A DNA stretch of 38,679 bases from a virus. The position numbers and the translations under genes were made by a program. The DNA lies in the IMG/VR virus record IMGVR_UViG_3300046311_000013, positions 1 through 38,679 of that record; one strand, written 5' to 3'. Positions 1,995 to 38,679 of the stretch are shown in pieces (the first letter of the stretch is position 1; each line of letters starts with the position of its first letter). The notes under the pieces are model-generated. The model had not been told where the DNA came from, made no database searches, and saw only the letters and a program-made list of their open reading frames with translations.

Positions 1995-2231
1995 ATGCGT
2001 TGTATCTGTTGTGATAAGAAGTTGAAAGAACATGAATCTGTGCGGCGTCACGCCATCACCAATGAGTTCTTGGATATGTGTGACACTTGTCTGAAAGATG
2101 TACCCAATATTCCGACAAAGCTACCCACAGGAATTGTGATCGAGTCTGACCCGTTCGAGGACATCGAAGACAACAGGGTAGACATTGATGATGTTACAGA
2201 TTGTTACACTTTAGATCTTGACAAGGATTGA
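1995..2231 (+). CDS. Small zinc-finger-like protein (78 aa)
   Basis: An AAAGGAG ribosome binding site lies 8 nt before the ATG. Two Cys pairs, CICC at residues 3-6 and CDTC at 29-32, frame a short helical segment and look like a treble-clef or zinc-ribbon knuckle. The C-terminal half is acidic. Similar small phage proteins (two CxxC pairs, then IPT and an acidic tail) are common in T7-related podoviruses with no known function. The 3' end of the gene contains the TGTTACA pair and the -35 of the next promoter, so coding and control sequence overlap here. Confidence 0.75.
   Translation: MRCICCDKKLKEHESVRRHAITNEFLDMCDTCLKDVPNIPTKLPTGIVIESDPFEDIEDNRVDIDDVTDCYTLDLDKD
2192..2208 (+). promoter_or_regulatory. 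Paired TGTTACA sites upstream of promoter at 2218
   Basis: TGTTACA at 2192-2198 and 2202-2208, 10 bp apart, followed by CTTTA and then, 9 nt after the second site, by the TTGACA of the next promoter. This is the same composite as at 287-308. The sites fall inside the 3' end of the zinc-finger-like gene. Confidence 0.45.
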
Positions 2232-2245
2232 GGAGCGTGTATAAT
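2218..2245 (+). promoter_or_regulatory. Perfect-hexamer sigma70 promoter, early operon 2
   Basis: TTGACA at 2218-2223, 16-bp spacer, TATAAT at 2240-2245. The -35 overlaps the last codons of the upstream gene (LDLDKD). Transcription should start near 2252, giving a leader of about 200 nt that contains the 45-bp palindromic element and the TGTAACA cluster before the gene at 2450. It is well placed to drive the primase-helicase and polymerase genes downstream. Confidence 0.75.
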
Positions 2246-2283
2246 ATACTATATAGACACTAGGACATTGCTTCTATGCTTAG

Positions 2284-2328
2284 AAGTTAAATACTATAAG
2301 TATATACTTAGATAAGTACTTATAATAT
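2284..2328 (+). promoter_or_regulatory. 45-bp leader element shared with the terminase leader
   Basis: This stretch matches 38159-38204 read on the - strand, with one inserted A as the only difference. It contains two neighbouring 12-bp perfect palindromes, AAGTATATACTT (2298-2309) and ATAAGTACTTAT (2312-2323). It lies about 30-75 nt downstream of the predicted start of the transcript. A hairpin CTTCTA-TGCT-TAGAAG (about 2271-2286) adjoins it. It could be an operator, a processing site or an antitermination-like RNA element. Confidence 0.6.
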
Positions 2329-2345
2329 TAACGTATAAGCATTGA

Positions 2346-2393
2346 TGTAACGTCTTAGTGACTTTAATGTAACATTAAAGACTCTATGTAACA
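2346..2393 (+). promoter_or_regulatory. Cluster of TGTAAC inverted-repeat sites in the leader
   Basis: TGTAACG at 2346-2352, TGTAACA at 2368-2374 and TGTAACA at 2387-2393. The second is the centre of a longer inverted repeat CTTTAATG-TAA-CATTAAAG, the third of CTATG-TAA-CATAG. TGTAACA is the reverse complement of TGTTACA, the site paired upstream of the promoters, so the same factor could bind here. The hairpins could also act in the RNA. Confidence 0.4.
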
Positions 2394-2449
2394 TAGACAA
2401 TGTTATATGTGTGTCTAAATGTTATAAACTATCATTAAAAGGTGATAAC

Positions 2450-7444: not shown

Positions 7445-7473
7445 TTGACATATCTCTTAAAATAGTGTATAAT
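7445..7473 (+). promoter_or_regulatory. Perfect consensus promoter of tRNA-Leu
   Basis: TTGACA at 7445-7450, a 17-bp spacer and TATAAT at 7468-7473: both hexamers and the spacing are optimal. The mature 5' end of the tRNA is only 8 nt after the -10, so transcription would start at or very close to the tRNA. A dedicated strong host-type promoter on a phage tRNA is notable. It also reads into the HNH and SSB genes. Confidence 0.8.
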
Positions 7474-18389: not shown

Positions 18390-18395
18390 ATGAAA

Positions 18396-18430
18396 AAGGC
18401 CCGTTAGAGCGATGAACTCTAACGGGCCTT
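18396..18430. terminator. Bidirectional terminator between converging arms
   Basis: A perfect 14-bp stem, AAGGCCCGTTAGAG (18396-18409) with CTCTAACGGGCCTT (18417-18430), and a 7-nt loop. On the + strand it is followed by CTTTGTTTAT. On the - strand the stem is followed by TTTTT-type sequence from the A run at 18393-18397. It stands 6 nt after the ClpP-like gene and 6 nt after the end of the lysis operon, so it ends both arms. Confidence 0.92.
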
Positions 18431-18436
18431 CTTTGT

Positions 18437-28062: not shown

Positions 28063-28109
28063 ATATTCTCCTTTGTTTATTACTCACTATACGTAAGTGA
28101 TAAATAAAA

Positions 28110-28129
28110 GAGAGCCCCGAAGGGCCCTC
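28110..28129 (-). terminator. Rho-independent terminator after the capsid gene
   Basis: Read on the - strand: GAGGGCCC, loop TTCG, GGGCTCTC, an 8-bp stem with one G-U pair and a stable UUCG-type tetraloop, followed by TTTTATTTA. It starts 9 nt after the capsid stop codon. On the + strand the pairing has an A-C mismatch and no T run follows, so it works for the - arm. It should raise capsid and scaffold mRNA relative to the tail genes. Confidence 0.88.
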
Positions 28130-28137
28130 CTCAATCA

Positions 28138-30486: not shown

Positions 30487-30516
30487 ATTATACCACATTT
30501 AGTGGTAATTTGTCAA
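30487..30516 (-). promoter_or_regulatory. Late promoter with palindromic operator in the spacer
   Basis: Read on the - strand: TTGACA (30516-30511), 18-bp spacer, TATAAT (30492-30487), both hexamers perfect. The spacer and the edge of the -10 contain TACCAC-N5-GTGGTA (30491-30507), a perfect 6-bp-arm inverted repeat. A bound protein there would cover the promoter. The promoter shares AGCTTGACAA and GGTATAATA with the terminase promoter at 38293-38321. It drives the capsid operon. Confidence 0.8.
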
Positions 30517-38053: not shown

Positions 38054-38158
38054 TTGTCTTTATCCTTTCTGTTAGGGAGACAACCTACTTGTAGATAGAC
38101 AATCCATCTATGCTTAAAGTACTTTAAAGGAACGTATAAGTTAAGAACTTAAACACTT

Positions 38159-38204
38159 ATATTATAAGTACTTATCTAAGTATATTACTTATAGTATTTA
38201 ACTT
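38159..38204 (-). promoter_or_regulatory. 46-bp leader element of the terminase operon
   Basis: Read on the - strand it equals 2284-2328 on the + strand, with one extra A. It includes the perfect palindrome ATAAGTACTTAT (38164-38175) and the near-palindrome AAGTAATATACTT. It lies about 80-125 nt downstream of the predicted transcript start, in the same orientation relative to transcription as the early copy. It may be an operator or RNA element that coordinates early and late arms. Confidence 0.6.
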
Positions 38205-38292
38205 ATACATTCGTTGTATCAACTGTGCAGATTCCTGCTAAGTCCTTAAGAGTCCATCACCTTCTTAGTTACTTCTATTTCCTATTACGTAT

Positions 38293-38321
38293 ATTATACC
38301 ATACTTTAAAGCACTTGTCAA
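38293..38321 (-). promoter_or_regulatory. Perfect consensus promoter of the late (terminase) operon
   Basis: On the - strand: TTGACA (38321-38316), 17-bp spacer, TATAAT (38298-38293). Hexamers and spacing are optimal. The spacer contains the palindrome CTTTAAAG (38304-38311). Sequence around it (AGCTTGACAA, GGTATAATA) is shared with the promoter at 30487-30516. It starts transcription near 38286, giving a leader of about 230 nt before the small terminase gene. Confidence 0.8.
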
Positions 38322-38336
38322 GCTTTTCCTTCATCT

Positions 38337-38353
38337 TGTTACAATTTATTACA
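38337..38353 (-). promoter_or_regulatory. Paired TGTTACA / TATTACA sites upstream of late promoter
   Basis: TGTTACA (38337-38343) and TATTACA (38347-38353) start 10 bp apart on the + strand, followed by CTTTTACACTT. They lie 15 nt upstream of the late -35, in inverse orientation relative to transcription; TGTNACA is almost palindromic, so orientation may not matter. The pair repeats the geometry at 287-303 and 2192-2208. Confidence 0.4.
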
Positions 38354-38538: not shown

Positions 38539-38679
38539 ACATTCAACACTAAAGCCTTACCCCTCCCCCCCCCCATCAAAGTATCAGCCAAGGCTTATAT
38601 AAGTCCATACTTATGCACCAATGTAGTGCTCTAAAGTTATCCACAGGTTATCCACAACTGTACATCCATACAGTAGTCA
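38539..38679. repeat. Right copy of terminal direct repeat / contig overlap
   Basis: Repeats 1-140 with one additional C in the C run (10 rather than 9). It includes a second copy of the two DnaA boxes. If the genome is circularly permuted, this copy is an assembly overlap and not a second biological element; if it has terminal repeats, both are real. Confidence 0.9.

Follow-up and report, generated by a model that had tools for sequence, protein, structure and literature searches.

A conserved palindromic element in the leaders of the replication and structural operons of an uncultivated phage group, probably a control signal in messenger RNA

We found that a short palindromic sequence, present in the leader of each of two long operons of a viral genome record, is a real, conserved leader element of an uncultivated phage group. 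It is probably a control signal in messenger RNA, because the pair of copies recurs and largely changes together in dozens of related phages. In the window, that is, the whole stretch of 38,679 bases analysed here, the early copy (E, 2284-2328, plus strand) reads AAGTTAAATACTATAAGTATATACTTAGATAAGTACTTATAATAT, and the late copy (L, 38159-38204, minus strand) is, as the reverse complement, the same sequence with one extra A, just as the earlier note had claimed. The similarity of the two extends over 2281-2334 and 38153-38207, exact matches to ATAAGTACTTAT are confined to 2312-2323 and 38164-38175, and a larger inverted repeat encloses each copy with the element as its core. The features of the two leaders are as follows.

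2218-2245, plus strand: promoter P2, TTGACA-16-TATAAT, a 12/12 match, kept in relatives
2252-2366, plus strand: predicted 5'-proximal E-leader hairpin around the core (leader 2252-2450, z = -7.33; inverted repeat 2234-2385)
2281-2334, plus strand: E, early copy of the shared core (best match to L 90% over 60 nt, E = 1.9e-17)
2368-2427, plus strand: second E-leader hairpin, with TGTAACAT loops (fold; inverted repeat 2331-2410)
38055-38082, minus strand: hairpin TGTCTCCC...AAGGATAAAGACA enclosing the first late gene's ribosome-binding site (sequence, fold)
38127-38215, minus strand: predicted L-leader hairpin, outer stem 38193-38215 with 38127-38149 (fold, inverted repeat)
38153-38207, minus strand: L, late copy of the shared core (sequence comparison, element profile)
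38208-38234, minus strand: near-invariant block GAATCTGCACAGTTGATACAACGAATG (late-leader alignment)
38293-38321, minus strand: late promoter PL, TTGACA-17-TATAAT with TG before the -10 box, a 12/12 match, kept in many relatives

Both copies lie behind promoters with perfect hexamers, at about +32 (E) and +80 (L) from the predicted starts, and on these points too the earlier reading held. The block GAATCTGCACAGTTGATACAACGAATG sits directly 5' of the L core and is absent from E. When the window was compared with itself, two matches outscored that of E with L (score 49), namely the terminal overlap and the inverted repeat within the E leader (2234-2385), and the inverted repeat of L (38127-38215) came next below it. 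This makes E/L the strongest match between two separate places of the genome, the terminal overlap aside. Ten dinucleotide shuffles of the window gave self-match scores of at most 26, and local alignment of the E leader with the L leader scored 54, against at most 32 for shuffled leaders; a chance match between AT-rich sequences was rejected on both comparisons.

The first and last 141 bases of the record overlap, and therefore the two operons start out from one shared region in opposite directions and converge at a two-way terminator (18,393-18,433). The operon headed by E carries genes for a primase-helicase, DNA polymerase, exonuclease, endonuclease, thymidylate synthase and ribonucleotide reductase, and that headed by L carries the terminase, portal, major capsid and tail genes; we call them early and late from this gene content. 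The description of the phage as T7-like suits its replication genes and does not extend to the portal, for which sequenced phages offer only weak, partial relatives. PHROGs and Pfam scans of most ORFs, several of which have no assignment, revealed no phage RNA polymerase, and a direct search for RNA_pol (PF00940) missed its positive controls too. No terminase relative was found in the genome contigs searched for the host. Two further 12/12 promoters are present, at 7445-7473 (plus strand) before a tRNA-Leu gene and at 30487-30516 (minus strand) before the capsid region, and the leader element is absent at both. Within the late operon a strong intrinsic terminator (28107-28132, minus strand) directly follows the major capsid gene, with no strong promoter downstream; by analogy with T7 this terminator is perhaps leaky.

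Relatives were taken as the best 80 loci each from terminase and primase queries against viral contigs. The element profile matches many of these loci, in sense orientation to the promoter wherever a promoter was found, and the spacing is nearly fixed: most E copies begin 32-34 nt past the -10 box (24-29 in some) and most L copies 85 nt past it (109-125 where a block is inserted). A search of 24 whole related records gave element matches in 21. Nearly all records of the window clade have two loci, one per strand and ~3-4.3 kb apart, so that the element, which the earlier note had proposed to look for in related phages, is indeed found in both of their leaders; the exceptions are one record with an extra terminal duplicate and some incomplete records with one locus or a weak second one. 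The core is kept across phages whose terminases are 77-100% identical, and sister-clade records match the profile more weakly. Relatives that keep the operons and not the element, which the same note had named as evidence against it, do exist outside the window clade: in L009, L011, L014 and L016 (terminase 88-91% identical) both leaders are present without the shared element, but with other hairpins, and the records of L009, L013 and L014 (89-91%) gave no element match. For the E hairpin of L009, a promoter-like sequence was found within the 3'-terminal part of the ORF before it. Late leaders of distant relatives carry a stem-loop whose loop, GCCTGACCCCA, is invariant while its stems vary, with some matched two-sided changes (L008, L009, L013, L014, L062-L080, L130, L145 and L155). 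No sequenced phage in the phage collection carries the E leader, and a description of the element was not found in the libraries searched, which is not proof of absence.

The two copies also tend to change in concert. Across 20 genomes, the E and L cores of the same genome scored 21.6 against each other, compared with 19.0 for permuted pairs (p = 0.003, not corrected for phylogeny), and the genome's own L was the best match for E in only 6 of the 20. A different version, with AGTTAAATACACTATTAA at its centre, occupies both leaders in the sister clade (L062, L066, L072-L075, L080), where E leaders scored 28.9 against the clade's own L leaders, 13.6 against window-clade L leaders and 10.1 on average in the control; the window-clade means in this comparison are lower bounds, as some late leaders (e.g. 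that of L032) are poorly delimited. TATAAG and TAACAG versions are found at both sites and are mixed in some genomes. This likeness within genomes could come from gene conversion between the copies or from a shared recognition factor. The suggestion of a signal shared by two operon leaders is thus backed by two loci, a near-fixed distance to the promoter and partly concerted change; among the regulator, the processing site and the antitermination-like signal that it proposed, hairpin potential and location favour action at the RNA level.

In RNA, the E leader could fold from near the predicted +1 into a hairpin of ~110 nt. Among the relatives, z was below -2 in 36 of the 39 E regions and in 20 of the 32 L regions folded, and the pairs projected from the window are kept in ~80% of cells, compared with 27-44% when the projection is slid. 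The outer stem of L is 90.5% paired across 28 sequences and includes one UA-to-GC double change. Covariation above shuffles was absent in E and slight in L, so a structure proven by covariation is unsupported for E and weak for L. Run on MAFFT alignments, RNAalifold recovered hardly any consensus structure, and poor alignment of the AT-rich arms is the probable cause. At the Rfam gathering threshold the window contains only a tRNA, and neither leader matches a family; below threshold, the E leader resembles microRNA hairpins on both strands and the L leader does not. Departures from the window's Watson-Crick pairs in E were G-U wobbles rather than A-C mismatches by 14 to 6 (p = 0.058), with no such bias in L, and in E the sense arms from a single genome had a slight pairing advantage over permuted arms (p = 0.04, neither test corrected for kinship), which was not seen in L. 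From the wobble excess and the same-genome pairing in E, a functional RNA form is therefore weakly favoured over a DNA form. Antisense strands fold nearly as well as sense strands, and in L better on average, so a DNA palindrome is also possible. A conserved hairpin pattern (GTCTCCC...GGAYAAAGAC, found at 56 of the 80 best terminase loci) contains the first late gene's ribosome-binding site, which makes translation control plausible in L.

The location of the element in the transcript, its hairpin potential, the variable spacing of its half-sites and the other hairpins in relatives that lack the core point to a function of the leader RNA. We hypothesise, at somewhat less than an even chance, that a leader-RNA hairpin with the element as its core acts once transcription has begun, most likely as a site of double-strand processing or stability. 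Replication genes would be transcribed from P2 and structural genes from PL, each message carrying in its untranslated 5' leader an AU-rich hairpin with the element as core, and in L the element lies upstream of the conserved hairpin that encloses the first ribosome-binding site. The double-stranded RNA could then be cut or bound by a host factor of the RNase III type, and this cutting or binding would set the stability and translation of both messages. In T7, T3 and lambda the RNase III sites are likewise long hairpins in phage messages, some of them near 5' ends, and such sites are not known to have a common conserved sequence that changes together in two operons. By analogy, RNase III would be the simplest actor for the hairpins described here, whose predicted duplexes are nested stems of ~22 nt size in E and a 15-bp outer stem with inner stems in L. 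The enzyme needs a duplex of ~22 nt and processes RNAs of lambda, T7 and T3 (PMC5371410). A site recognised by structure alone would not, however, explain the sequence shared by E and L; the conserved core must be recognised by a protein or, as put of HK022 is, by RNA polymerase, or else be homogenised by recombination.

Among the alternatives to such a leader-RNA hairpin, we regard as rather unlikely that the element is a pair of DNA operators, at which a phage regulator bound to the half-sites TATAAGT and ACTTATA blocks or bridges both divergent operons, much as lambda CI bridges OL and OR. The palindromic half-sites are conserved in both copies, the copies are divergent and ~3-4.3 kb apart, they resemble each other within genomes, and the nearly strand-symmetric folding would suit DNA as well as RNA. 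Positions of ~+32 and ~+80 are nevertheless beyond those usual for operators, the distance between half-sites varies, with insertions in some copies, and no regulator was identified, the four-cysteine ORF at 1995-2231 being found also in phages that lack the element. Two long divergent operons whose leaders carry one element, oriented alike to transcription, also recall antitermination, in which the leader RNA, by itself as in HK022 put or with a factor as in lambda nut, would make polymerase read through both operons, and which we consider unlikely. HK022 putL and putR, of ~70 nt and similar to each other, lie downstream of PL and PR; as here, they form a pair of related elements, ~50-110 nt long, in the leaders of divergent operons of a phage that uses the host RNA polymerase (PMC9378689). 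The present pair shares this arrangement of related elements in two divergent leaders. In contrast to put, which serves two early operons, one of the operons here is structural, and the two defined stem-loops with which put contacts the zinc-binding domain of the polymerase beta' subunit are replaced by AU-rich predicted hairpins. Lambda nutL and nutR are likewise one element downstream of two divergent promoters, but they require boxA/boxB and protein N, and here no gene resembling N was recognised, nor was a boxA/boxB demonstrated. The terminator at 28132-28107 within the late operon would give antitermination a target, but, placed behind the capsid gene, it may be no more than a leaky terminator, and no strong terminator was found in the E operon before 18393. 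With slightly less confidence, an RNA element read directly by the host polymerase or by a co-evolving phage factor could control elongation of the replication operon as well as the structural one in a phage that has no RNA polymerase of its own, in clade-specific versions that changed together.

It is improbable that recombination, or a spread like that of the promoter-associated stem-loops (PeSLs) of T4-like phages, keeps the copies alike with no common recognition function. The TATAAG and TAACAG versions, present at both sites and sometimes mixed, are what such homogenisation would leave, and PeSLs join a promoter to a stem-loop repeated in the phage genome and are reported as mediators of gene shuffling (PMC4503421). 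In contrast to such cassettes, the element here occupies two fixed sites in whole records, not many, with promoter spacers and flanks that differ between the sites; the other 12/12 promoters are without it, and the core persists across phages whose terminases are as little as 77% identical. Least of all do we expect a transcription-primed replication origin, a reading suggested by a promoter and an AT-rich element beside T7-type replication genes, the primary origin of T7 itself being a promoter with an AT-rich stretch. The sign of the GC skew, which here also tracks gene direction, switches close to the genome join and again at ~18-20 kb rather than at either element, and a pair of DnaA boxes in tandem at 98-117 makes a more obvious candidate. 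These two perfect boxes (TTATCCACA, 2 bases apart, repeated at 38637-38656) lie between the divergent operons, are present in several relatives too and possibly mark an origin dependent on host DnaA.

A coupling of the early and late genes at initiation would be better explained by another repeat, found ahead of three promoters, which is the likelier candidate for this role than the leader element.

287-303: TGTTACA-N3-TGTTACA box upstream of promoter P1, a direct repeat
2192-2208, plus strand: TGTTACA-N3-TGTTACA box upstream of P2, overlapping the 3' end of ORF 1995-2231
38337-38353, plus strand: TGTTACA box with one mismatch upstream of PL, in the opposite orientation relative to the promoter

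The box gives five strand matches at these three places in the window and nowhere else, with 0.5 expected, and lies 20 bp (P1), 9 bp (P2) and 15 bp (PL) from the -35 hexamer. In 18 relatives the boxes are mostly at the counterparts of P1, P2 and PL, and downstream of ORF 1995-2231 their usual distance to the -35 is 9 or 19-20 bp, values about one helical turn apart; this arrangement would be compatible with a possible activator box. ORF 1995-2231 (plus strand), directly upstream of P2, encodes a small protein with an acidic tail and four invariant cysteines, and is conserved even in relatives without the element. Its structural model (mean pLDDT 68, moderate confidence) has no significant match in the PDB, and on this basis its identification as a known regulator was rejected.

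If the proposed role of the element is true, phages of a large uncultivated group would share a conserved regulatory signal that ties two operons together in the absence of an RNA polymerase of their own. Since E and L change largely together, the natural variants would serve as ready-made tests of whatever recognises the element, and of the RNA against the DNA reading.
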